A DNA stretch of 39,017 nucleotides from a virus. The notes beneath the pieces were generated by a model that did not search any database, was not told the DNA's origin, and saw only the letters and a program-made list of their open reading frames with translations. The DNA lies in the IMG/VR virus record IMGVR_UViG_3300019093_000591, positions 1 through 39,017 of that record, one strand, 5' to 3'. This document shows positions 1-34,453 of the stretch, one piece after another (position 1 is the first letter of the stretch; every line of letters begins with the position of its first letter). The translations under genes were made by a program, and so were the position numbers.

Positions 1-36
1 CAGGAGCAAACGGTTCGAATCCGTTATCCTCCACCA
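1..36 (+). tRNA. tRNA, 3' fragment cut by the window edge
   Basis: A T-arm (stem 9-13 with 21-25, loop 14-20 reading TTCGAAT) is followed by a seven-base acceptor strand at 26-32, discriminator A33 and an encoded CCA at 34-36. The anticodon lies outside the window, so the amino acid cannot be assigned. The 5' acceptor strand should read GGAGGAT. The bases before the T-stem may be the end of a long variable arm, but that is a guess. Confidence 0.85.
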
Positions 37-52
37 AGATAAGTAATAGTAG

Positions 53-126
53 GCCCTGTTAGTTAAGTGGTATAACACCTGTTTTGTAATCAGGTATTGG
101 CAGTTCGATTCTGTCACGGGGCACCA
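53..126 (+). tRNA. tRNA-Thr(UGU)
   Basis: A complete cloverleaf. The acceptor GCCCTGT pairs with 116-122 (one G-U), discriminator is A123 and CCA is encoded at 124-126. The anticodon loop reads TTTGTAA, giving anticodon TGT for threonine ACA codons; the pair closing the anticodon stem is a T-T mismatch. It lies 16 nt after the preceding tRNA, so the two are probably processed from one transcript. Confidence 0.93.
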
Positions 127-142
127 AGATAGCCAAAACATG

Positions 143-171
143 TTGACAGACATGTTGTCATATGTTATAAT
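143..171 (+). promoter_or_regulatory. Consensus sigma-70 promoter, TTGACA-17-TATAAT
   Basis: The -35 box TTGACA (143-148) and -10 box TATAAT (166-171) match the consensus exactly with a 17-bp spacer; the expected start is near 178. An inverted repeat, TGACA/TGTCA (about 145-161), overlaps the -35 box and spacer and could be a repressor site. It should make a strong promoter for host polymerase, reading into the leader and the gene at 464. Confidence 0.88.
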
Positions 172-177
172 AGTTTT

Positions 178-463
178 GTTGAGACAGAAATGTTTCAACC
201 GGTGAAGTGAAGGGTAGATGAGAATAGACACAAAGGCGTGAGCTTCATGCTTACTCCAAACTTACAACCATCTGAACAATGGAACGTGTTTATGTGATCC
301 GATCCCTAATAGAATGTCATTTGTTAATCGGAAATATATGGACCTCTGTGTATTGTATATTGCACATTGTCAAAGGAAGATTACAAACCTTCCGTTGCAT
401 ATTGTCCGGTCTATTACTTGACCTTTCATGGACCCGTCATTGTTGTTTGAATAAAGGAAGAAA
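178..463 (+). ncRNA. Structured leader or small RNA beginning with a GAAA-capped hairpin
   Basis: No convincing gene lies in these 286 nt. The predicted transcript starts with a 9-bp stem (178-186 with 191-199, one G-U) closed by a GAAA tetraloop, exactly where transcription from the upstream promoter should begin. A second hairpin, GTGAGC/GCTTAC (238-243 with 249-254), follows, and GGAAG/CTTCC pair near 375-393. A terminal GNRA hairpin is a known way to stabilise a 5' end. It may be a long 5' UTR, or a separate stable RNA like those in the T4 tRNA cluster. A 62-codon frame from 279 has no ribosome binding site and was not called. Confidence 0.5.
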
Positions 464-1039
464 ATGAATATCACACTGAGAAAAGCAAATGCTGTGCAGA
501 ACAGCATCAACGATACCATCAAAGGTATTAAGGTAGATTTCACCGTGGAACTCAACGAGTTTCAGGACGTAGAAGCTGCCATCACCAAGGCCAACTCTGA
601 TTTGGTTACCAATGATGGTCGCAGACAAAAGCTGACCATGGCTCTGTACAACATCCGTGCATTGGTTGGCACAGCCAACGCAGCCAGTGGTATCAACACA
701 GCCCTAGCCAAGGCAGCGTTCATTGACAAACGCATCGGTCAGCTAGAAGAACTGGCCAAGGCCACAGAGATTACTTCTTTGGAAGTGATCAAAGGCAAGT
801 TGGAAAAGATCAAGAACGACAAAGGCGAAACAAGCCGTCGTAGCATCTACGGTTACAATGACACTGTAAGTACCAGTGTGCTTGGTCGAGAACAAATTGC
901 ACAGGCAAAGGCAGAAGTGCTTAACCTGAAAAAGCAAAAACAACAGCTCAACGACGAAGTGCTTGAGTTGAACATCAAGACAGAGATTCCTCTGAGTGAT
1001 GATGTGGTGGCTTCACTGCAAGCAGAAGGCTTGCTGTAA
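464..1039 (+). CDS. Hypothetical phage protein, helical
   Basis: A 191-residue protein I cannot assign to a family. AAAGGAAG just upstream of the ATG is a good Shine-Dalgarno sequence. The middle and end are rich in Lys, Glu, Gln, Ala and Leu with heptad-like spacing (residues about 85-120 and 140-170), suggesting an alpha-helical, perhaps coiled-coil protein. There is no signal peptide or membrane segment. It is the first gene after the strong sigma-70 promoter and long structured leader, so it is likely made early and abundantly. Codon use is typical of a real gene. Confidence 0.8.
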   Translation: MNITLRKANAVQNSINDTIKGIKVDFTVELNEFQDVEAAITKANSDLVTNDGRRQKLTMALYNIRALVGTANAASGINTALAKAAFIDKRIGQLEELAKATEITSLEVIKGKLEKIKNDKGETSRRSIYGYNDTVSTSVLGREQIAQAKAEVLNLKKQKQQLNDEVLELNIKTEIPLSDDVVASLQAEGLL

Positions 1040-1046
1040 CAGACCC

Positions 1047-1062
1047 CGGGCGCCCTTGCCCG
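1047..1062 (+). terminator. GC hairpin after the 464-1039 gene (weak terminator candidate)
   Basis: CGGGC (1047-1051) pairs with GCCCG (1058-1062) around a six-base loop, eight bases after the stop codon. No T-run follows, so it is not a clear intrinsic terminator; it may instead be the first element of the structured region downstream. Confidence 0.35.
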
Positions 1063-1149
1063 TTATACAAAGGGGGTGGGGCAGTCACCATAAAGAGTGC
1101 TTGGTGTGTAGTGCATTGACCATCTGTGCTCTGTGATGGAGTGGCGGAG

Positions 1150-1341
1150 ACGCATTAGGTGAGGTTTAACACCTTCCCATAAGAATAAATGTTATGGACA
1201 GAGTAACAGCTCAGTCTAGGGCTCATGTGGTGTGAGTAGCTAGACACTTTAATAAAACACATTTTGCCTAAACATAGTTTAGGTTGGAAGGACTGCACAC
1301 CAGTGTCAACAAAAGTGCGAAGTGTGTTTTATTAATTTTAT
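1150..1341 (+). ncRNA. Candidate structured RNA with a three-way junction upstream of the initiator tRNA
   Basis: There is no gene between 1040 and 1341, but hairpins follow one another: 1157-1161 with 1170-1174; 1190-1194 with 1204-1208; 1214-1219 with 1240-1245, enclosing 1222-1225 with 1233-1236. Last comes an 18-bp helix, 1249-1266 with 1318-1335 (two G-U pairs). It encloses CCTAAAC/GTTTAGG (1267-1273 with 1277-1283) and ACTG/CAGT (1292-1295 with 1301-1304), forming a three-way junction. It ends 6 nt before the tRNA, so RNase P could free it. I do not recognise it as tmRNA, RNase P RNA or a known riboswitch. T4 encodes two stable RNAs of unknown function in its tRNA cluster, a possible parallel. 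Confidence 0.55.
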
Positions 1342-1417
1342 CGCGGGATGGAGAAGGTGGTATCTCGGAAGTCTCATAAGCTTCAGATCGTCGGTTCGAC
1401 TCCGACTCCCGCAACCA
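1342..1417 (+). tRNA. Initiator-type tRNA-Met(CAU)
   Basis: The anticodon loop CTCATAA gives CAT. C1342 faces A1413 at the end of the acceptor, the unpaired 1-72 position typical of bacterial initiator tRNA, and the next six pairs are intact. The 11-24 pair is A-T, also initiator-like. Encoded CCA is at 1415-1417. Unusually, the anticodon stem is GAAGT/GCTTC and lacks the three consecutive G-C pairs that mark initiators. It lies 19 nt before the omega gene. An elongator or lysidine-modified Ile tRNA is less likely because of the 1-72 mismatch. Confidence 0.85.
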
Positions 1418-1436
1418 GTTTTTACAAAGGCAAAAA

Positions 1437-1664
1437 ATGAAACTAACTGACAGCCGTGGTCCTAACATAGATACACAAAAATGTGTAGAACAAGCAGGAG
1501 GCAACAGATTTGATCTTGTACTCATAGCCACAGTAAGAGCTAGAGAATTATCTCGTAGACACAAGGCAGCAGGACATACCACTCAGGTAAATGCTCCTGT
1601 GAGTGCCTTGTTAGAAATCCAAGAAGGCAAGATAGGTAGAGATTATCTTAAAAGAGTAGAATAG
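1437..1664 (+). CDS. rpoZ: RNA polymerase omega subunit (RpoZ-like)
   Basis: A 75-residue homologue of omega, the small subunit that binds the beta' C-terminus and assists RNA polymerase assembly. Residues 21-38 (GGNRFDLVLIATVRAREL) carry the conserved core of the family and residues 54-66 match its second conserved helix (PVSALLEIQEGKI). It is shorter than E. coli omega (about 90 residues), like several short bacterial forms. AAAGG precedes the ATG by 7 nt. It sits between the initiator tRNA and tRNA-Pro on the same strand. On a phage it could replace host omega and alter promoter choice or polymerase assembly. Confidence 0.88.
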   Translation: MKLTDSRGPNIDTQKCVEQAGGNRFDLVLIATVRARELSRRHKAAGHTTQVNAPVSALLEIQEGKIGRDYLKRVE

Positions 1665-1667
1665 ATT

Positions 1668-1744
1668 CGGAGTGTGGCGCAGCCTGGTAGCGCACCTGGT
1701 TTGGGACCAGGGGGTCCAAGGTTCGAATCCTTGTACTCCGACCA
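1668..1744 (+). tRNA. tRNA-Pro(UGG)
   Basis: A full 77-nt cloverleaf strongly resembling bacterial proline tRNAs. Acceptor CGGAGTG pairs with 1734-1740, the anticodon loop is TTTGGGA with TGG as anticodon, the T-arm is AAGG-TTCGAAT-CCTT, and A1741 plus CCA ends the gene. It starts three bases after the omega stop codon. Confidence 0.95.
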
Positions 1745-1769
1745 AGGTCAGCTGATAAGTAAAGACAAT

Positions 1770-1843
1770 GCGGGATTAGTTTAATGGTAAAACAGCAGAT
1801 TTCCAATCTTCGGTCAAGAGTTCGATTCTCTTATCCCGCTCCA
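1770..1843 (+). tRNA. tRNA-Gly(UCC)
   Basis: Acceptor GCGGGAT pairs with 1833-1839, the discriminator is T1840 as in bacterial glycine tRNAs, and CCA is encoded at 1841-1843. The anticodon loop TTTCCAA gives TCC, reading GGA/GGG codons. It ends 8 nt before the next gene. Confidence 0.94.
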
Positions 1844-1851
1844 AGGACGCC

Positions 1852-2427
1852 ATGCAGGTAGTAGATCAAACACAGCTTGTTCGTAAATTCAATTTTAGCA
1901 GTGTTATCACTGAGCAAGATGATGCTGTGGCCTGCAACATTATCAAAAATATTGTTGCCGACGGCAACTACTTTACCAATAGCCCCAAGTTTCAAACCAA
2001 AGAGAATATATTTGCTAGATCAGAACCGGTATGGCTGAAATACAGAATGAGCTTTATGTTCAGCCTATTCATGTATCTAGGTCGTGAAGTCAAAGTATCA
2101 GAGATGATGGCCTGGAGTTTTATGACCAATCTCCAGGGTGCCGAAAATCGTGAAAATCTGTGGCACAATCATTGGCATCCAAAAAATCCCAATAGTAAAA
2201 TGTTCAGCGGAGTATACTATCTGCATATTCCCAGCGATGTCAAAGATCTCGATTATTGCGGCACAGAGATAGCACCCAATGGTGTGGAACAAGACGGAAA
2301 ATATTTTATCAAACCCACAGCGGGCCATTGGATCATTTATCCTAGTGATACCTGGCACCGTCCAGGTATTGTGCAGAGCAACCAATATCGTTTCATATTG
2401 GCAGCAGACATAGAAGTGAATGGCTAA
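1852..2427 (+). CDS. 2OG-Fe(II) oxygenase family protein
   Basis: A 191-residue protein resembling the small phage Fe(II)/2-oxoglutarate oxygenases of the 2OG-FeII_Oxy_5 type. The metal-binding region is WHNHWHP (104-110) followed by SGVYYLHIP (119-127); the distal histidine is in PSDTWHRPG (164-172), and R180 in the last strand can bind 2-oxoglutarate. Such enzymes hydroxylate or otherwise oxidise proteins, lipids or small molecules; the substrate is unknown. AAGGA lies just before the start, between the tRNA-Gly CCA and the ATG. It overlaps the next gene by 8 nt. Confidence 0.82.
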   Translation: MQVVDQTQLVRKFNFSSVITEQDDAVACNIIKNIVADGNYFTNSPKFQTKENIFARSEPVWLKYRMSFMFSLFMYLGREVKVSEMMAWSFMTNLQGAENRENLWHNHWHPKNPNSKMFSGVYYLHIPSDVKDLDYCGTEIAPNGVEQDGKYFIKPTAGHWIIYPSDTWHRPGIVQSNQYRFILAADIEVNG

Positions 2428-3115
2428 TGTTTTAATAATCGGGGACAGCTGGGGCGTTCCAAATTACCCACCATCACACTACGGAGATGTTGACCGCGCT
2501 CATATAGGTGATCCTCCCGAAATACATACCGAATTTTTACTTCGAAGCATTGGACACACTGTAGTTAATTGTTCAATTAATGCCAAGGGAAATTTAACCA
2601 GTATCTTAAAAGGTATTGAATATAGTCAATCAAATCCTGTGGATTGGATAGTTTGGTTCCACACTGAAATGCTACGCGATTCTTATCTAAATGGTATGAA
2701 CAACACCTACTATAAAATAAATGAGTTAGTAGAATCAATTTCTGAAATAATATATAAAAAATTTCAAGAACTAAAACGAATTAGTGAAGCTAGCTCTATC
2801 GTGATCGGTGGGCAGGCCCCGGTATTGGATAGTTTTTATAAGCATACCTCAGCAGACTATGTCAAACGAGATTGGCGCGGAGAGATTTTAAATCGTGAAT
2901 TTCCCATAGTACATTCAATCTGCGCCCTTGATCTTTTAGAAAGCCCATACTGTACAAATACCATAGAAGAAAAATTGAGGCTGCTAGATCAGCATAAAAT
3001 TATTCTAGATGCAATGTCTGAATCCCCTGACTTTCCGGATCGATGTCACCCTGGTCAGCGACCGCATGCTGAATTGTGTGTATGGTTAGAAAAAATAATT
3101 GGCTCCTATAGTTAA
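2420..3115 (+). CDS. SGNH/GDSL-hydrolase-like protein
   Basis: A 231-residue protein with a GDSWG nucleophile motif at residues 8-12 and a C-terminal DxxH pair (D207, H210 in DRCHPG), the arrangement of SGNH hydrolases, which act as esterases, lipases or carbohydrate acetyl-esterases. N71-like Asn and Gly blocks are hard to place by eye, so activity is not certain. It is translationally coupled to the preceding oxygenase. Its last four codons and stop lie inside the 5' part of tRNA-Thr(GGU), a 14-nt overlap. It is one of five related proteins in the window. Confidence 0.75.
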   Translation: MANVLIIGDSWGVPNYPPSHYGDVDRAHIGDPPEIHTEFLLRSIGHTVVNCSINAKGNLTSILKGIEYSQSNPVDWIVWFHTEMLRDSYLNGMNNTYYKINELVESISEIIYKKFQELKRISEASSIVIGGQAPVLDSFYKHTSADYVKRDWRGEILNREFPIVHSICALDLLESPYCTNTIEEKLRLLDQHKIILDAMSESPDFPDRCHPGQRPHAELCVWLEKIIGSYS

Positions 3116-3175
3116 ATGGCATAACGCATCCTTGGTAAGGATGTATTTCAAGTTCGATTCTTGGTTGGAGCACCA
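3102..3175 (+). tRNA. tRNA-Thr(GGU)
   Basis: The anticodon arm is perfect: CATCC/GGATG around TTGGTAA, giving GGT for ACC/ACU codons. The acceptor GCTCCTA pairs with 3165-3171 except for one T-T mismatch; A3172 and CCA follow. The 5' end overlaps the stop codon of the SGNH-like gene. With tRNA-Thr(UGU) it gives the phage wide threonine coverage. Confidence 0.92.
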
Positions 3176-3176
3176 C

Positions 3177-3205
3177 TTGACAATTTCTAAAAAAGACTGT
3201 ATAAT
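3177..3205 (+). promoter_or_regulatory. Consensus sigma-70 promoter, TTGACA-17-TATAAT
   Basis: TTGACA (3177-3182) and TATAAT (3200-3205) are both exact with a 17-bp spacer. The -35 box begins one base after the tRNA CCA. Predicted start is near 3212, leaving a 16-nt leader that contains AAGGAG (3217-3222) before the ATG at 3228. It should drive the metalloprotease, IF-1, phosphatase and small gene up to the terminator at 4664. Confidence 0.9.
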
Positions 3206-3227
3206 AAATGAAATACAAGGAGCTCTT

Positions 3228-3680
3228 ATGGAAATTGAAGTAGTTGCTCGCAAGAGCGCCAGTAAAACTCTTATCGAAAACTGTCTGCAGATCTATAAGA
3301 AAGAATTAAATTTGACCAACAGTACCTACGGGCTTGTGGTATTTACAGAACGAGGTATGAGTGCTAAAGAAGGCATGCGAGGCAGTGTGTTCAAACTAGG
3401 ACCAAAAATCATCGGCATGGTCATAGACACTGGTCTAGACCTAGAAAGATTGATCATTGCTTTAGCGCACGAAATGGTGCATGTCAAGCAGTATGCTCGA
3501 GGGCAAATCACACATGGTCGTACTCTAAACAGTAAGTTTTGGATGGGCAAAAAATATCGACTTCCATATTATGATCTTCCCTGGGAAGTAGAAGCGTTTA
3601 GCAAGGAACGAGTGTTAGCTAACAAGGTTTTTCAAATTATAGACAACCCAACAAAATCAAAGAAAAATGGCAAAAAGTGA
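3228..3680 (+). CDS. HExxH zinc metalloprotease-like protein (SprT-like)
   Basis: A 150-residue protein with HEMVHVKQ at residues 81-88, a zincin HExxH site (H81, E82, H85), followed by a region with further His and Glu residues (W130-E135 area) that could supply the third ligand. It resembles SprT-like putative metallopeptidases of phages. The reading frame is open from 3099, but ATG 3228 is chosen: AAGGAG is 5 nt upstream and the promoter start lies at about 3212. It is the first gene of the operon and overlaps IF-1 by 14 nt. Target proteins are unknown. Confidence 0.72.
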   Translation: MEIEVVARKSASKTLIENCLQIYKKELNLTNSTYGLVVFTERGMSAKEGMRGSVFKLGPKIIGMVIDTGLDLERLIIALAHEMVHVKQYARGQITHGRTLNSKFWMGKKYRLPYYDLPWEVEAFSKERVLANKVFQIIDNPTKSKKNGKK

Positions 3681-3895: not shown

Positions 3896-4456
3896 ATGCC
3901 GTGGATTCAAAACGTAGGTTTGGGCGATATTAAAAGAGGACTTCACATTGACCCCGGAGTCAACTCTATGTTGATTCAAATTGTTGATCCAGATATGGAG
4001 TTTCCTACACCTAAGTATTCTTTCAAAGAAATCCATCAATTTAAATTCTTGGACATTGAAGAAAAAGACTTTGCACTAGACGAAGCCATGCGTTGTAGTC
4101 AAGAGCAGGCCAATGAGCTTGTTCGATTGTTGCAACATGCATTAGAGCAGAGAATGAATGTTATAGTTCATTGTCATGCTGGTGTTTGCCGTAGCGGGGC
4201 TGTGTGCGAAATTGGTGTTATGCTAGGCTTTGGTGATACTGAAGTATTTCGTAGCCCTAATCTGCTGGTCAAGCATCGCATGATGAAGTCACTGAGTTGG
4301 ACCTACGACCCCGATGAGCCCCACAGTATCAATGGTGTAACCACTGAGTTTGGTATCATTCTCCCCAAGGAAATAGAGTGGGCCAATGACAACGAAAAAG
4401 TTTTTGTCTTGGCCGCAGAACGCAGAGCACGTAGAGAAAGAGAAGGTGACATATGA
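3896..4456 (+). CDS. Protein tyrosine/dual-specificity phosphatase-like protein
   Basis: A 186-residue protein with HCHAGVCRSG at residues 92-101, the CX5R phosphate-binding loop (C93, R99) of cysteine-dependent phosphatases. A preceding Asp/Glu-rich segment (residues 53-63) may supply the general acid. Target could be a phosphoprotein or nucleotide. The start is fixed by TAAGGA 8 nt upstream; the 16-nt start region TAAGGAAAACATTATG (3883-3898) recurs exactly at the histone-like gene (38523-38538). The C-terminus is strongly charged (ERRARREREGDI). It overlaps the next gene by 4 nt (ATGA). Confidence 0.82.
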   Translation: MPWIQNVGLGDIKRGLHIDPGVNSMLIQIVDPDMEFPTPKYSFKEIHQFKFLDIEEKDFALDEAMRCSQEQANELVRLLQHALEQRMNVIVHCHAGVCRSGAVCEIGVMLGFGDTEVFRSPNLLVKHRMMKSLSWTYDPDEPHSINGVTTEFGIILPKEIEWANDNEKVFVLAAERRARREREGDI

Positions 4457-4644
4457 TTAGATTAAATATATTTGAATTAAACAAAATCAAAAAAATCTGT
4501 GAGGAAGTTGGTACAGAATACTTTACGCTAGAACAAGATAACAGTTCTGGTATTGGAAGTGTTCTTACATTCACCTACGAGACAGAAATCGCAGATTATC
4601 CTGCTACAGTAACTATCGAAGTGTCGGGTGTAGAAAATTGGTAA
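4453..4644 (+). CDS. Small hypothetical protein
   Basis: A 63-residue protein of unknown family, coupled to the phosphatase by an ATGA overlap. It begins with an amphipathic helix (residues 5-20) followed by beta-rich sequence with alternating hydrophobic residues (34-61). No cysteine pair, signal or membrane segment stands out. It is the last gene before a strong terminator. Confidence 0.6.
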   Translation: MIRLNIFELNKIKKICEEVGTEYFTLEQDNSSGIGSVLTFTYETEIADYPATVTIEVSGVENW

Positions 4645-4663
4645 CCGTGGTGTTTCTACAACA

Positions 4664-4696
4664 CCCCGTCGATTTTGGTTGACGGGGTTTCTTTTT
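4664..4696 (+). terminator. Intrinsic terminator
   Basis: CCCCGTC (4664-4670) pairs with GACGGGG (4681-4687), followed by TTTCTTTTT. A competing hairpin, GGTGTT/AACACC (4649-4654 with 4660-4665), shares two bases with it, so the two are mutually exclusive at their edges. The 3' arm of the terminator contains the -35 box of the next promoter. Confidence 0.88.
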
Positions 4697-4707
4697 GGCG
4701 TTATAAT
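4679..4707 (+). promoter_or_regulatory. Sigma-70 promoter overlapping the terminator
   Basis: TTGACG (4679-4684), a 17-bp spacer and TATAAT (4702-4707). The -35 box lies in the terminator loop and 3' arm. The predicted start is 4714, which is the A of the next gene's ATG. Confidence 0.75.
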
Positions 4708-4713
4708 AGTGGC

Positions 4714-4914
4714 ATGATACAAGTAAAAAGCAAAACAAAAACAAAAGAATTTGAAACCCTAGACCTAGCAATGACTTGGGCCAAGCATGTGAATGAGTTC
4801 GTTACCATCACAGTTAACGGAATGGAAATAGTAGGACGATTTGGAGCAGACAGCATTGTTGAGGGCAAATGCCCAGACGGTGTCGACTACACCTGGAAAA
4901 AACGTAGAATTTAA
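4714..4914 (+). CDS. Small hypothetical protein, probably from a leaderless mRNA
   Basis: A 66-residue protein of unknown family (MIQVKSKTKTKEF...). The frame stays open to 4675 through the terminator, but ATG 4714 coincides with the predicted transcription start and no Shine-Dalgarno sequence precedes it, so a leaderless mRNA is likely. The product has a short helix (about residues 17-28) and a beta-rich C-terminal half ending in basic residues (KKRRI). It is followed 15 nt later by the metallophosphoesterase gene. Confidence 0.6.
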   Translation: MIQVKSKTKTKEFETLDLAMTWAKHVNEFVTITVNGMEIVGRFGADSIVEGKCPDGVDYTWKKRRI

Positions 4915-5571: not shown

Positions 5572-5599
5572 AAATAGCACCTTCGGGTGCTATTTTTTT
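5572..5599 (+). terminator. Intrinsic terminator with UUCG tetraloop
   Basis: AAATAGCACC (5572-5581) and GGTGCTATTT (5586-5595) form a perfect 10-bp stem closed by TTCG, with a run of seven T including the stem end. It ends transcription of the metallophosphoesterase. Confidence 0.93.
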
Positions 5600-5623
5600 G
5601 ACTCTATGTTCTGATATCCGCGG

Positions 5624-5631
5624 CATAAATA
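5624..5631 (+). promoter_or_regulatory. T4-type late promoter, CATAAATA
   Basis: Seven of eight bases match the T4 late consensus TATAAATA. With T4 spacing the start would be near 5637, giving a 27-nt leader that contains AGGAG (5651-5655) before the tail-fibre-like gene. Confidence 0.6.
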
Positions 5632-5663
5632 TATGTGGTAGAACAATTCCAGGAGTTATAGAT

Positions 5664-6830
5664 ATGCCCTTACAGATTCGCAGAGGCACCAACACACAAA
5701 GAACGGCAATGACCCAGCCATTGGCTCAGGGAGAATTGCTGTATGTAACCGATGATCAAAGATTATACATCGGAAACGGAACTACACTGGGTGGTGTCCA
5801 GATTACCGGATACACCAATGAAGATGCACAAGATGCATCAGCCCTACTTTTCAGTAATGGCGCACACACCGGAATTACCTTTACATATAATGACGCAGCA
5901 GCCAGTATATCAGCTGTGGTCGATTTAGCTAATTATCAAGGAACCATTGGTGCAACTTCTTTCAAGGGATCTATTGTAGCTGACGATTCTACACTGTTGG
6001 TAGATGGTATATCAGGTACCATTGTAGGACCTGTGGTATCCAACGTTACAGGGAATGTTACAGGAAATTTAACTGGTAATGTTATAGGTAATATTACTGG
6101 GGTAATAACAGGCACTGCTGGATCAACTATTTTAGGTAATGTTACTGGTAATGTTACTGGTAATGTTACTGGTAATACAACTGGATATCATACAGGCGAT
6201 GTGAAAGGAAGTGTATTCGCAGATGACAGTAGCATAATAGTCGATGCTGTGAGCAATTCAGTGATAGCAGCGAGCGTCATCACTGGTTCTGTTCGATTGC
6301 AAGGTACCATTGATATATTAGAAATTGGAACTGCTGCAACCCCTGTAGGCATATTACTCACAGCCCAAGAATCCGAAAGCATATCAATATATTCAAGAAC
6401 AGATGGATTATTCGACGGTGGTGGCCCAATTAATTTTTACGGGCAGAGCGGAACTTATCTTGCGCCATTAAAAATTGCTGCAGAAGGATCCTTAGGCGGC
6501 CTGGCTTTTAGCGGGTATAATGGATCTGTATATAAATTAGGTGCTGCTATGGTGGCATCAGTTGCACCAGGAGTCGACACCACAGGTGATGCATTTATCG
6601 CCACTGACCTTATTTTTGCCACAAGCAACGGAACGGTCACACCTAGTATAGCATTAACTCTTAGACGTGATCAAGTTGCTGAATCTCCTTGCTTTAGAGC
6701 AACTCCGTTTGCTGATGTAACTGCTAGAAATGCGGCAATTGCTTCGCCACAGGCAGGTATGGTTGCTTACCTAACCAGTACAAACAAACTACAAGTGTAT
6801 AACGGTAGTGCTTGGGTAGATTTGCACTAA
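5664..6830 (+). CDS. Phage tail-fibre-like structural protein
   Basis: A 388-residue protein. The N-terminus (MPLQIRRGTN, then PLAQGELLYVTDDQRLYIGNG) is the type found on many T4-like and marine phage tail or structural proteins. The middle is an array of GNVTGN-like hexapeptides (about residues 125-175), expected to form a trimeric beta-helical shaft. The C-terminus (QAGMVAYLTSTNKLQVYNGSAWVDL) is also typical of phage fibre tips. ATG 5664 is chosen over the open frame from 5598 because AGGAG is 8 nt upstream. Probably a virion component that meets the host surface. Confidence 0.8.
   Translation: MPLQIRRGTNTQRTAMTQPLAQGELLYVTDDQRLYIGNGTTLGGVQITGYTNEDAQDASALLFSNGAHTGITFTYNDAAASISAVVDLANYQGTIGATSFKGSIVADDSTLLVDGISGTIVGPVVSNVTGNVTGNLTGNVIGNITGVITGTAGSTILGNVTGNVTGNVTGNTTGYHTGDVKGSVFADDSSIIVDAVSNSVIAASVITGSVRLQGTIDILEIGTAATPVGILLTAQESESISIYSRTDGLFDGGGPINFYGQSGTYLAPLKIAAEGSLGGLAFSGYNGSVYKLGAAMVASVAPGVDTTGDAFIATDLIFATSNGTVTPSIALTLRRDQVAESPCFRATPFADVTARNAAIASPQAGMVAYLTSTNKLQVYNGSAWVDLH
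6135..6182 (+). repeat. 12-bp tandem repeat in the fibre gene
   Basis: GGTAATGTTACT occurs three times without change (6135-6170), followed by a diverged copy to 6182; related degenerate units lie at 6046-6110. Each unit encodes GNVT. Such arrays can change length by slippage without breaking frame. Confidence 0.85.
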
Positions 6831-7469: not shown

Positions 7470-8213
7470 ATGAATATTGGAATATATGGAAATAGTATCT
7501 GCGAGTGGAACAGAGTTCAAGAGTTTTCTTTTATTAAAAAACTCAAAGATTTTTATTCGGCGAATATAATACATACAGGAACTACTATGTGTTCCGAAGA
7601 ACGTATATTAGTTGATCTCAAAAAAACCAAAAATATAGATTTAGCAATAATTTTTCATGCTAAAGCCAGATGGATCTTTATTCCGTCATGGCATAGAGAT
7701 ATTGAATCATTAGATAGATATACCATAATTAAAAAAATACATAGTTTTCCAGGGTATAGTGAAGAACAAACTTTTGATAATACAGAAGATGAAAGTAGTA
7801 TTTTAGCTGTGAAACGATGGTATCAAGATTATATAGGCGAAACAAAATTTAAAGACTCTAAACTTTCTCCAGAAGAACTGCTAGAAGCATTATTACTGAA
7901 TAAGAAATACATGTTTAGTGTTGAATTACAACGTAATAGATATTGCGGAGCATTAGTTCAAATAGATCAATATTTAAATTTTAAACAAATCCCAGTTGTC
8001 CACTGTTTATCAGAAAAAGAATTTCACCCAGAATGGTTTAATTTTAGTAGTGGGGTAGTTAATCACAATATTACAGAAATTAAAAAAATTCCTAAATACA
8101 AAGCTGAACACAACTTATCCTGCAACGGTGTAAATGAGGACGGTAATGAGTTAATGTTTAACCAACTTATTCCATTAATCGATGCGGCCCGTAGTAAAGT
8201 GGTTATACGCTAA
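7470..8213 (+). CDS. SGNH-hydrolase-like protein
   Basis: A 247-residue protein beginning MNIGIYGNSICEW, where GNS stands in the place of the GDS motif of SGNH hydrolases; the usual aspartate is replaced but the serine is kept. The C-terminal part (HNLSCNGVNEDGNELM) aligns with the DxxH end region only loosely, so catalysis is doubtful. Codon use is much more AT-rich than in the genes before 5600. Expressed from an exact late promoter with almost no leader. Its last nine codons and stop lie inside a tRNA-Gly-like gene (8184-8257), so its tail is tRNA-derived. Confidence 0.65.
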   Translation: MNIGIYGNSICEWNRVQEFSFIKKLKDFYSANIIHTGTTMCSEERILVDLKKTKNIDLAIIFHAKARWIFIPSWHRDIESLDRYTIIKKIHSFPGYSEEQTFDNTEDESSILAVKRWYQDYIGETKFKDSKLSPEELLEALLLNKKYMFSVELQRNRYCGALVQIDQYLNFKQIPVVHCLSEKEFHPEWFNFSSGVVNHNITEIKKIPKYKAEHNLSCNGVNEDGNELMFNQLIPLIDAARSKVVIR

Positions 8214-8257
8214 CTGTCCAAGTTAGAGACGGAGGTTCGAATCCCCCGGCCGCTCCA
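8184..8257 (+). tRNA. tRNA-Gly-like gene, probably abnormal (anticodon UCC, U33 changed)
   Basis: It begins GCGG, ends CCGCTCCA with T discriminator as in glycine tRNAs, and has a T-loop TTCGAAT. The anticodon stem CTAAC/GTTAG is perfect, leaving loop TGTCCAA with anticodon TCC but G instead of the near-invariant U33. The acceptor pairs for six bases only, the T-stem has an A-C mismatch, and the D-arm is out of register by about one base. It may be decayed or unusual. It overlaps the 3' end of the gene at 7470 (30 nt) and of the desaturase on the other strand (35 nt). A normal tRNA-Gly(UCC) is present at 1770. Confidence 0.65.
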
Positions 8258-28976: not shown

Positions 28977-29476
28977 AATACATAGGTAACTTTAAAGACT
29001 GGATTAAACAAGAATGGATTGACGAATTGTTATCTTCAAAGGGTATGGGAAGATTTAAAGAAGGTCCACAGCCCGATAGTCCTGTAATGCAGGCACAATG
29101 GGTCAAAGCTGTAAAGGCCGGCTACAATCTTGAGACTGAATATTTTTATATGTTTGATAAAAGCAACGTATCTTTTAAGATTGATCCTCCATGGTGTAAC
29201 GGTAAAAACTTTCATTGGTGGATTACTAAAATGTTGCCTGGTAACTGTATGCCAATACATACCGACCCTCACACAGAGTACGAGTCAAATAGTCAACGTT
29301 ATTGGGTCCCATTACAAGATTACCAAAACGGACACTGGTTTGTTTATAATGATGTTGTAATAACAGACTATACAGCAGGAGATGTTTATCAATATGATGA
29401 TAGCCGTGATCCACACGGTGCTATTAATGTAGGAATAACTCCCCGACTAATATTACAAGTGAGTACATCTGAATGA
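28973..29476 (+). CDS. 2OG-Fe(II) oxygenase-like, YIGNF paralogue 5
   Basis: A 167-residue member starting MKYIGNFKDW, identical over ten residues to paralogue 1, with MPIHTD (H96, D98), DPHGAINVG (H148) and R158. The two outermost copies being most alike at the N-terminus suggests duplication with later insertions between them. ATGA overlap with the halogenase gene. Confidence 0.8.
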   Translation: MKYIGNFKDWIKQEWIDELLSSKGMGRFKEGPQPDSPVMQAQWVKAVKAGYNLETEYFYMFDKSNVSFKIDPPWCNGKNFHWWITKMLPGNCMPIHTDPHTEYESNSQRYWVPLQDYQNGHWFVYNDVVITDYTAGDVYQYDDSRDPHGAINVGITPRLILQVSTSE

Positions 29477-31056
29477 AAATAATTATTGTTGGGGGTGGAA
29501 CAGCTGGATGGATGACTGCTGGATATCTCGCAAAATATCATGGTGGCGAAAATATTGTACTGATTGAATCTCCCGTTATTCCTAAAATTGGGGTCGGTGA
29601 AAGTGTGACGCCACACGTTGCTAGTTTTTTTGATGAAATTGGAGTTCCTATAAATCATTGGATGAAATATACTGGTGCTGTGTATAAGTATGCTAATAAA
29701 TTTGTAGGCTGGAAGGCAGGGGGTAACGAGTCTGAATATTTTAGTTTTAATTACACAACGTCCTCTAATAATTTTTATAAAGACATTACCCAAAATAGAA
29801 CTAAAGAAGATTTTTCAAACAATCCAGAAATTGAACGCACAACTGACCATGTATTAGATATGGTGCAGAATGGAATGTTTGATAGATTTGATAAATGTTT
29901 TAATCCTCAATTTCATTATATGGAGAAAAATGTTGCGCCGTTCAAAGACGGAGAGCATCTACTTAATGCGCCATTTAGTTTTAGTCAACATATCAATGCT
30001 GAACTTGCTGGTAATTATATTAGAGACTACATTGCTAAACCTGCTGGGATAACACATATTCTAGCAACAGTTAAAAATGTTACACACAACAGTGATACTA
30101 TTTCTAGTATAGAACTTGACAACGGTGTTGTTATACATGGCGACTTGTTTATTGACTGTACAGGGTTTGCTAAAGTACTAGTTGAAAAGTTAGGATGGGA
30201 AGTTAAGGAATACACTGATCATTTAATAAACAGAGCATGGGTTTGCCAAACAGATTATGTTGACCATGAACAAGAAATGGTTAATTATACACAAAGTATT
30301 GCTGAACCTTACGGCTGGCGTTTTAAAATAGGCTTATATCATCGAATGGGTAATGGCTACTGTTTTAGTAACAAGCACATTAGCGATGAAAATGCTTTAG
30401 CTTATTTTGAAAAACAATTAGGGCCGCAACGTACAAAACCTAGATTAATTAAATGGGAGCCAACACGATTAGTAAAGTTTGGCTCTGGTAATGTAGCTGC
30501 TGTTGGCCTCAGTTGCGGATTTATTGAACCATTAGAAGCAAATGCGTTGTATACTATTATTACCAGCATCCGTAGATTAAACAACGTGCTAGGACAAAAA
30601 GAACTAGACTGGACGGTATATAATGAAAAAATGTCATACACGATTGACGATATTGCAGATTTCATACTAGTTCATTACACGTTGAGTCCAAGGCATGATA
30701 CAGATTTTTGGACCGACATGCATAAGGTAGGCGAAAGATTAAATCATAAAAAATTGCTGTGGGACAAATATAATCATCCTAATAATAGTATGTACGGAGC
30801 AGTTACTGGGTACACACTGTTTCCAGACTATATGTGGGCACAGTTAGGTTCAACATTTGGTTTGCCTTGTGATGTAAAAAAATACGATGCTACTACACAA
30901 TTATTAGCATACTCGTATTTTAAATATTCTGAAAACAAACATAATGTTATTTCCAATGAAATGACTAACAGTTACTTATGGCTGAAAGAAAATGTATTTG
31001 AAGGATTAACGTCTAAAGAATGGGAAGGAAAGTATCTTGTTTCAAGAATGGATTGA
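29473..31056 (+). CDS. Flavin-dependent (tryptophan-type) halogenase
   Basis: A 527-residue FAD enzyme of the PrnA/RebH family. GGGTAGWMTA (7-16) binds FAD, PKIGVGES (37-44) is a family motif, and K76 in ANKFVGW fits the catalytic lysine that forms the chloramine. GFIEPLEA (349-356) is also conserved. The WxWxIP motif is altered to GWRFKIG (281-287). Full length. Such enzymes halogenate indole or pyrrole rings, free or carrier-bound, using a flavin reductase; no reductase gene is seen. It sits at the end of the oxygenase array by ATGA overlap. Confidence 0.88.
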   Translation: MKIIIVGGGTAGWMTAGYLAKYHGGENIVLIESPVIPKIGVGESVTPHVASFFDEIGVPINHWMKYTGAVYKYANKFVGWKAGGNESEYFSFNYTTSSNNFYKDITQNRTKEDFSNNPEIERTTDHVLDMVQNGMFDRFDKCFNPQFHYMEKNVAPFKDGEHLLNAPFSFSQHINAELAGNYIRDYIAKPAGITHILATVKNVTHNSDTISSIELDNGVVIHGDLFIDCTGFAKVLVEKLGWEVKEYTDHLINRAWVCQTDYVDHEQEMVNYTQSIAEPYGWRFKIGLYHRMGNGYCFSNKHISDENALAYFEKQLGPQRTKPRLIKWEPTRLVKFGSGNVAAVGLSCGFIEPLEANALYTIITSIRRLNNVLGQKELDWTVYNEKMSYTIDDIADFILVHYTLSPRHDTDFWTDMHKVGERLNHKKLLWDKYNHPNNSMYGAVTGYTLFPDYMWAQLGSTFGLPCDVKKYDATTQLLAYSYFKYSENKHNVISNEMTNSYLWLKENVFEGLTSKEWEGKYLVSRMD

Positions 31057-32536: not shown

Positions 32537-34453
32537 GTGAAAAACGTATATCTAATACAAGCCGAAATCACATCCGGTCCTATAAATGAACACTACTTGC
32601 CATTTAGTGTTGGGTGTATCTGGTCATATGCTAATCAATTCGAAGACATAAAATCAAATTTCAAGTTATGTGATATAATTTGGCAAAGAGATCGGCAGGC
32701 AAACGTATTAGATAAAATTATAGATCCGGATATTGTGGGATTTAGTTGCTATGTATGGAATCATAATTGGAATCTAACACTTGCTAAAAAAATAAAAAAC
32801 AAATATCCAAACTGTTTAATTGTTTTTGGCGGGCCAAGTGTTAATGAAGCATGGACTAATTACGAATTCATTGACGTGGCAATGTTTGGGGAAGGTGAAG
32901 TTGCCTGGGCAGAACTTTTAAGATTATATCAAGATAACAACTTCATACCTCGATACTGGAACAATCCTAGACAAAACGACATTGCTAATTTTCCAAGTCC
33001 GTATACTACTGGATTCTTTGATAAAATTATAGAAGAGAATCCAGATGTAAGTTGGTTCATGATGTTGGAGACCAATAGAGGATGTCCGTATCATTGTACA
33101 TTCTGCGGCTGGGGCGCAGACTATTTAAACAAACTTAAAAACTTTAACTTACATAGAGTTGAAGAAGAAATTGCGTGGGCAATAACACATAACATACACT
33201 GGATGTTTATCATCGACGCAAACTCAGGAATCATGAAAGAACGTGATGTAGAAATTGCATGGATGATTCGAAGAGCTATCGAAACCCCGGGGAGTAAAAT
33301 TAGACGTGTTACATTTAACCATGCTAAAAATTTAAACGAACATTGTTTTGAAATGGAAAAGATTATTCAAGACTGGACGTATGGTTTAGAGATAGCTATA
33401 CAAAGCATGCATCAACCTACTCTTACTGCCGCTAAACGAATTAATATGGGTATGAATAATTTAGAACGTGCTTATGCATTGTGTCGTAAACACGGCATTC
33501 GATACTATACGGAACTAGTACTTGGGTTACCTGAAGAAACTAAAGAAACATATATTAACGGACTAATACAACTATTAGAATTGGGTCAGCATGACAGCGT
33601 AAAAACCTATCCTTGTACTGTTATACCTAACAGTGAAATGGATACTCCCGAATATCAAGAACGATATGGAATTAAACTTATCTATCCTAGAGACATGTAC
33701 CGCAGTCCGGAAGAACGTATTTGGGATGATGAAGATAACAGTTATGAATCTATTGCTATGGTGTCATCTACAGCATCGGCATCGAGTCAAGATCTAGCAG
33801 ACTGTTTAAGCTATAGTTGGATGATGAGTCAATTTCATTATGCAGGCATTACACAATTAATATCACGCTACTTGTATCATATTAAAGATATAAACTATCG
33901 TGTATACTACGATAAATTTTATCAAGTATTAAAAACTGATCCGATTGGAGGGCCACTGTTAAACAATGTTGAGGAAATATTGCAAAACTATATGGCACAC
34001 GGCGAAGTTCCAAAAGATGATAAGTGGGGGAATGTAGTAGCTCTTACACTACCTGAAAGTTACGGTAGCGATGATATCTATAGAAATAAAGATCATTTTA
34101 TAAAATTAGCAGTACAGGCAGCAGAAGAACTTTCAGAACTAGATCCTAGTATTATTAAATTACAGTACGCATTTACAAAAACTGAACTTCAGGCGTACCC
34201 TTACACTATTGAGTCGAGTATCGATATTGATCGTTGGGAATTCAATGAGTGTGTTTATGAAATAACTGATCGTAAGGCAGTTAGCCATATGCACGATCAA
34301 ATGTATCAAAAATACTTGTTAAAAACAGATATGAAGAATATAACAAATCCGTATGTTGAAAAATATATTGACGATGTTTATAAGGGACAAAAACTTGCTA
34401 CAATTCCAATTACATTCATTCCAACTACTGTGCTAGAAGGGCGAGTAATGTAA
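32537..34453 (+). CDS. B12-binding-type radical SAM enzyme
   Basis: A 638-residue protein starting at GTG. An N-terminal Rossmann-like cobalamin-binding region (residues 1-135: DPDIVGFSCYVW, FGGPSVNE, GEGEVAWAELL) is followed by the radical SAM core with CPYHCTFC (C183, C187, C190). No DxHxxG motif is seen, so cobalamin may bind base-on-free or weakly. Enzymes of this class methylate unreactive carbons or rearrange rings. A C-terminal 250 residues have no assigned domain. TAATG junction with the next gene. Confidence 0.83.
   Translation: MKNVYLIQAEITSGPINEHYLPFSVGCIWSYANQFEDIKSNFKLCDIIWQRDRQANVLDKIIDPDIVGFSCYVWNHNWNLTLAKKIKNKYPNCLIVFGGPSVNEAWTNYEFIDVAMFGEGEVAWAELLRLYQDNNFIPRYWNNPRQNDIANFPSPYTTGFFDKIIEENPDVSWFMMLETNRGCPYHCTFCGWGADYLNKLKNFNLHRVEEEIAWAITHNIHWMFIIDANSGIMKERDVEIAWMIRRAIETPGSKIRRVTFNHAKNLNEHCFEMEKIIQDWTYGLEIAIQSMHQPTLTAAKRINMGMNNLERAYALCRKHGIRYYTELVLGLPEETKETYINGLIQLLELGQHDSVKTYPCTVIPNSEMDTPEYQERYGIKLIYPRDMYRSPEERIWDDEDNSYESIAMVSSTASASSQDLADCLSYSWMMSQFHYAGITQLISRYLYHIKDINYRVYYDKFYQVLKTDPIGGPLLNNVEEILQNYMAHGEVPKDDKWGNVVALTLPESYGSDDIYRNKDHFIKLAVQAAEELSELDPSIIKLQYAFTKTELQAYPYTIESSIDIDRWEFNECVYEITDRKAVSHMHDQMYQKYLLKTDMKNITNPYVEKYIDDVYKGQKLATIPITFIPTTVLEGRVM

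Follow-up and report, generated by a model that had tools for sequence, protein, structure and literature searches.

Positions 1043–1338 of the window, by which we mean the whole 39,017-base stretch of the IMG/VR virus contig IMGVR_UViG_3300019093_000591 that was analysed, encode a conserved + strand RNA made up of a pseudoknot-rich core and one exchangeable three-way-junction cassette (Table 1). This cassette belongs to a large set of elements, lying between tRNA genes in giant phages from fresh water, that have slot-specific closing helices and mostly unrelated interiors. Region 1–3300 of the window holds part of a tRNA array (Thr, Met, Pro, Gly and Thr, as called by ARAGORN), a gene for a 191-residue protein and the cassette. 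The sole tRNA or tmRNA call made by ARAGORN or Rfam around the RNA is the neighbouring tRNA-Met, and searches of the locus and its relatives with Rfam 15 gave no family at or above the gathering threshold. The 191-residue protein has no Pfam or PHROG match, and its weak relatives (24–28% identity) are found in jumbo phages of Caulobacter and Brevundimonas. The candidate promoter upstream of its gene is a perfect TTGACA-17-TATAAT.

Table 1 Positions in the window of the RNA, its helices and the neighbouring features
Feature	Position	Strand	Basis or detail
Sigma70-type promoter, candidate transcript start	143–171	+	12/12 consensus matches; consensus match only
191-residue protein gene, conserved	464–1039	+	Ends 3 nt 5' of the RNA core
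RNA core, ~205 nt: four consecutive pseudoknots, then P9 and P10	1043–1245	+	Alignment A1, 54 rows
Pseudoknot 1	1047–1074	+	P1 (1047–1051 × 1058–1062) interlocked with P2 (1053–1057 × 1070–1074); z −10.0, −13.0
Pseudoknot 2	1075–1101	+	P3 1080–1083 × 1098–1101, z −11.7; loop 1086–1089 × 1075–1078 (J2/3), z −5.1
Pseudoknot 3	1102–1156	+	P4 (1102–1105 × 1119–1122) interlocked with P5 (1110–1114 × 1152–1156); P6 hairpin inside
Pseudoknot 4	1158–1194	+	P7 hairpin about 1158–1178, register uncertain; loop 1167–1170 × 1191–1194 = P8
Most conserved 3' domain	1201–1245	+	P9 1201–1203 × 1210–1212; P10 1214–1219 × 1240–1245 and 1222–1225 × 1233–1236
Exchangeable 3' cassette (class A), three-way junction	1246–1338	+	Alignment A3 (20 homologues), covariance model R2
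P11 closing helix	1249–1264 × 1320–1335	+	97.3% paired in 20 homologues; both sides changed in 8/19 pairs
P12 hairpin	1266–1284	+	98.1% paired; both sides changed in 6/8 pairs
P13	1296–1298 × 1315–1317	+	100% paired; both sides changed in 3/3 pairs
tRNA-Met(CAU), initiator-like	1342–1417	+	ARAGORN; Rfam RF00005, 54.8 bits

Several further features of the window were recorded. Between the promoter and the 191-residue protein gene, 172–463 looks like a second likely noncoding RNA (fold z = −3.9; no Rfam match), which is strongly conserved, with 80% identity in one relative (L031) and about 57–65% in many others, and is also present in relatives that do not have the core and cassette; one exact 22-mer of it was found in 108 viral contig stretches. 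Another perfect sigma70 promoter (3177–3205) lies immediately 3' of tRNA-Thr(GGT) at 3102–3175, and a second tRNA-Gly(TCC) call at 8184–8257 is weak (35.3 bits), overlaps the ORF 7470–8213 and is possibly degenerate or false. Accessory genes include a member of the tryptophan-halogenase family (29473–31056), a B12-binding/radical-SAM-like gene (32537–34453), a dual-specificity/tyrosine phosphatase-like gene (3896–4456) and a gene with a major-tropism-determinant N-terminal domain (5598–6830).

Fold and covariation of the core and cassette

An earlier note on this DNA had described an 18-bp outer stem enclosing two hairpins just 5' of the initiator tRNA. The element indeed ends 6 nt before that tRNA, the outer stem is conserved in the homologues as P11, and the first hairpin, 1267–1283, is kept as P12. 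The second hairpin (1292–1304, ACUG/CAGU) turned out to be an MFE artefact, with 46.8% of its cells paired in the homologues, and P13 takes its place. The segment 1249–1335 has a folding energy of −28.1 kcal/mol compared to −14.9 ± 3.0 kcal/mol for dinucleotide shuffles (z = −4.4, 0/200), in agreement with the fold proposed. Covariation had been named as a test of that proposal, and the homologues do carry compensatory changes: across P11 and P12 these were seen in 14 of 27 pairs (20 homologues). In both alignments together, 132 cells are G-U and 3 are A-C, so that it is the RNA of the + strand, the strand that encodes the tRNAs, which is under selection. The statement that the region has no gene holds on the + strand; on the minus strand a mechanical ORF (1268–1582) does exist, without support of any kind. 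The suggestion of a new phage RNA is borne out by the compensatory changes, by their presence on the tRNA-coding strand and by the lack of an Rfam family match. When the cassette interior was compared with the window for antisense or copied sequence, the longest match was 12 nt, which we take as chance. The cassette at 1249–1335 is a real RNA structure and forms one domain of a larger RNA that starts near 1043, in which it lies directly 3' of P10. What had been described as four more hairpins reaching back to 1047 is in fact a compact core of four pseudoknots and the hairpins P9 and P10.

Ordinary consensus folding of the core was defeated by its pseudoknots and indels, and RNAalifold alone, applied to a MAFFT alignment, found few helices. 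We therefore tested the core helix by helix, comparing the duplex energy of the two strands from the same sequence with that of strands permuted among sequences, in 54 representative cores. Pseudoknot 3 gave z values of −7.1 for P4, −10.4 for P5 and −6.5 for P6, pseudoknot 4 gave −6.1 for P7 and −6.7 for P8, and P10 gave −13.7; P9, which is nearly invariant, gave −1.1. Five deliberately mismatched strand pairs, used as controls, all had |z| < 2. Because every variable core helix passes this test and the controls do not, we read the core as four pseudoknots followed by P9 and P10. In a separate alignment (A2, 42 distinct rows), 99.3% of the P9/P10 cells are paired and 7 pairs are changed on both sides; none of 500 shuffles reached the covariation score of these helices and six slid versions came nowhere near it, although the permutation tests ignore phylogeny, and relatedness is addressed by the mismatched-strand and slid-helix controls only. 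Two further contacts, a pairing of 5' ACCC with 3' GGGC and a kiss between the P2 and P9 loops, showed no covariation (|z| < 2) and were rejected. The pairwise identities of the core segments are mostly uncorrelated (−0.07 to 0.32, the exception being pseudoknots 2 and 3 at 0.61), so that the core, too, is a mosaic whose segments have been swapped. A covariance model of the core 3' domain (R1), which has the window among its training rows, matched 1178–1249 at 92.9 bits.

Distribution of the core and interchange of cassettes

A search of IMG/VR with the 191-residue protein gave 80 loci, 78 of them with a tRNA-Met downstream. In 25 of these 78 the gap between gene and tRNA-Met is just 9–11 nt and the RNA is absent, indicating that it is accessory, and the remaining related loci carry an insert of 213–562 nt (897 nt in one, with an added ORF) that starts with the same core. 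An independent scan with the core 3' motif found it in at least 120 viral contigs, and after removal of duplicates there are at least 124 distinct core copies, counts in which IMG/VR contigs may represent redundant populations. Nearly all copies lie in tRNA arrays, at many different positions. Among the 106 usable copies listed, the core starts 1–5 nt 3' of a tRNA in 32 and 11 nt from one in one more, and 95 have a tRNA downstream, these frequencies coming from a set that was partly selected through the neighbouring 191-residue protein gene and is not unbiased. Of 13 large contigs known to carry the RNA (101–355 kb), 12 have a single copy by R1 and the thirteenth has two.

The core of the window, like that of about 50 relatives, begins 3–4 nt after the stop codon of the 191-residue protein gene, as would be expected of a 3'-UTR element that stabilises or regulates the mRNA of this gene. 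However, many copies follow a tRNA or occupy other places in the array, away from the gene, and the 25 relatives described above have the gene without the RNA. The copies between tRNAs largely refute this explanation, and we consider it very improbable.

R1 gave no match in five contigs whose locus is without the RNA, nor in the phages CcrPW and Domovoi, and blastn with four core variants against 50,697 deposited phage records gave no meaningful match, so that no isolate carrying the core RNA is known from these genomes. A scan of genome contigs with the core motif gave 8 matches, all judged from their context to be chance. In CcrPW (L215, about 4607–4898) and Domovoi (L216, about 4598–4910) we observed an unannotated gap of about 290–310 nt after the homologue of the 191-residue protein, which has the appearance of a structured RNA closed by a long helix (GGGGUGGAAGCG...CGCUUCCACUC in CcrPW).

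The place behind the core is occupied in other phages by wholly different modules, either single or in tandem arrangements of up to three, and copies of the window's own cassette class, detected with R2, are also found away from any core, flanked directly by two tRNAs. There, the tRNAs can extend the closing helix in exact register through pairing of the upstream 3' ACCA with the downstream 5' UGGU, and both tRNA ends take part in 54 of the 111 strong stems. We examined 596 distinct inter-tRNA gaps 45–260 nt in length; in 107 of them (18.0%) the ends can form a closing stem of 14 bp or more, compared to 1.5% with permuted ends and 0.2% with shuffled sequence, and at 16 bp the figures are 95 gaps (15.9%) and 0.8%; one mismatch is allowed and G-U is counted in these stems, and the cassette counts depend on this rule and on the ARAGORN tRNA boundaries. 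Once the cassettes behind the core are included, there are 155 elements, which group by their interiors into 68 families and are spread over 53 slots, with 14 families present in more than one slot; the window's class is in the largest family, which has 27 members in 10 slots. The tRNA-Lys(UUU)>tRNA-Met(CAU) slot holds 28 distinct elements whose closing helices have a mean identity of 86% and whose interiors have one of 28%, which indicates that the stem is constant for a slot while the payload is hypervariable.

These patterns could mean that the cassettes serve long tRNA-array transcripts as processing or spacing devices. In that case the 14–22 bp helix would be what functions, as an RNase III site, an exonuclease block or an insulator that separates adjacent tRNAs, and the interior would only fill space. 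The register with the tRNA ends, the use of both ends by about half of the strong stems and the conservation of the helix alone in the Lys>Met slot, where the interiors are unrelated, would all follow. On the other hand, the interiors that can be aligned are structured under selection (P12 and P13 covary in class A), interior families are shared among many slots, and the core RNA would be left without an obvious role. We regard this explanation as a serious possibility, though less likely than not.

A second explanation is that of a mobile DNA element: the cassette would be a REP- or MITE-like palindrome, which spreads via tRNA islands and whose fold is a by-product of its terminal inverted repeats. 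The inverted ends, the presence/absence variation and the many slots, 10 of them for one family, would suit such an element, but a DNA palindrome would not favour the large excess of G-U over A-C, the interior helices covary, and the closing helices match each slot instead of sharing a single conserved terminal repeat. Thus we think it unlikely that these are mobile elements.

Some cassettes resemble tRNAs. In the inter-tRNA gaps L223, L126 and L246 a perfect tRNA-type T-arm lies under the long closing helix, as if the element had come from a tRNA whose acceptor stem was lengthened. Class B cassettes (type d, in the core 3' tails of L007, L010, L017, L116 and L130) have a T-arm beside an 8-bp inner stem, with a UUCGAUU or UUCGACU loop and stems changed on both sides, reminiscent of a tRNA-like domain. 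We rejected the idea that cassettes in general are degenerate tRNAs; just 8 of the 111 strong-stem elements have a perfect T-arm, with 0.5 expected, so that only a subset is tRNA-like.

Probable release from the array and possible roles

We think it probable that the RNA is a tRNA-array RNA, core plus exchangeable cassette, that is processed out of the array and whose payload is perhaps a recognition or decoy domain. The RNA would be transcribed together with the array and then probably cut out by tRNA end processing, with RNase P acting at 1341/1342 on the 3' side. The close spacing behind a tRNA in about a third of the usable copies and the tRNA that follows most of them fit such a release. 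By analogy to the stable RNAs in the tRNA arrays of T4 and T5, the compact RNA, once released, would likely persist, shielded by the long closing helix of its cassette.

What the released RNA might do is a more tentative matter. We suggest, as one possibility and not the likelier one, that the core serves as a shared scaffold, with the interior of the cassette as an interchangeable recognition domain, driven to diversify, by which a variable host factor is bound or decoyed; an anti-phage RNA-targeting protein could conceivably be such a factor. The main rival of this recognition or decoy reading is that only the helix counts, whether for processing or for insulation. The hypervariable interiors may do no more than separate functional helices as neutral spacers, and we found no protein partner or target, both of which count against recognition or decoying.

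The near-identical helices might also allow cassettes to be exchanged between phages by recombination. At its broadest, and here we are speculating beyond what we expect to be true, the tRNA arrays of giant freshwater phages would hold a library of interchangeable RNA payloads on constant stems, alongside a pseudoknotted scaffold RNA that itself bears such a payload, with the payloads swapped from slot to slot and from phage to phage by recombination in the stems and acting in trans as hypervariable anti-defence decoys or ligands. If this were so, the arrays would be an RNA counterpart of the variable islands of anti-defence genes.

Comparison with known RNAs

GOLLD (RF02032) is a large pseudoknotted phage RNA of tRNA islands whose 3' part is conserved and the rest less so, and ROOL (RF03087), which occurs in phages and prophages and often close to tRNA islands, contains several pseudoknots (PMC12286853). 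The shared setting, the complex pseudoknotted fold and the combination of variable and constant parts (PMC12286853) raise the idea that our RNA is a divergent part of one of these. The tRNA-island setting is common to GOLLD and the core RNA and is not diagnostic. GOLLD is often longer than 800 nt and the ROOL model has 574 positions, whereas the core has about 205 nt plus the cassette. The GOLLD model gave no match at 1000–1450 up to E = 5, nor did 8 relatives yield one up to E = 1. It did match 2 of 10 contigs that also carry the core RNA (G011:C1:15569-16032 and G015:C1:828-1290; 206 and 216 bits), but in both at a separate place and with nothing at the core or cassette; in G011 the GOLLD match lies 3' of the core RNA in the same tRNA island, behind a promoter-like sequence. 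ROOL was not matched at the locus, in the 8 relatives or in ten large contigs, the ten-contig search having no positive control. We consider a GOLLD or ROOL origin to be extremely improbable.

We found no description of the core RNA in our literature search, which was limited to open-access papers, and within that literature we have seen described neither a core built as a chain of pseudoknots nor cassettes that combine a constant stem with a hypervariable payload. The unexplained stable RNAs in the tRNA arrays of the classic phages T4 and T5 previously had little to be compared with. The new family offers well over 100 natural variants, a fold supported by covariation, a separable constant core and hypervariable cassettes, and with it the role of non-tRNA RNAs in phage tRNA arrays becomes directly testable. 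In addition, a good part of the "spacer" DNA of these arrays is structured RNA that standard annotation misses.

The RNAs of T5 and T4 are the closest known. The T5 array (GenBank AY543070) contains RNAI, RNAIII, RNAIV, RNA1, RNA2, RNA2H and RNA3, of 73–172 nt, mostly annotated as stable RNAs of unknown function, which likewise lie within the tRNA array and adjoin tRNAs or each other. A closing helix extending into the flanks is found in RNAIII (21 bp), RNAIV (22 bp) and RNA2H (14 bp), compared to 21 bp in the window with one mismatch allowed; the other T5 RNAs tested, unlike the window's cassette, have no long closing helix, and no pseudoknot-chain core like that of our RNA is known among the T5 RNAs. 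In T4, species 1 and species 2 (rnaC and rnaD; GenBank AF158101) are small stable RNAs of 139 and 119 nt that end the tRNA cluster. They lie 1–6 nt from their neighbours, a close spacing like that of the core RNA, but in contrast to the window's cassette they have no long closing helix beyond chance. Neither the T4 nor the T5 RNAs gave a covariance match to the core-domain (R1) or cassette (R2) models. The core and cassette RNA thus belongs, by setting and architecture and not as a sequence family, to the loosely defined kind of stable RNAs of phage tRNA arrays.
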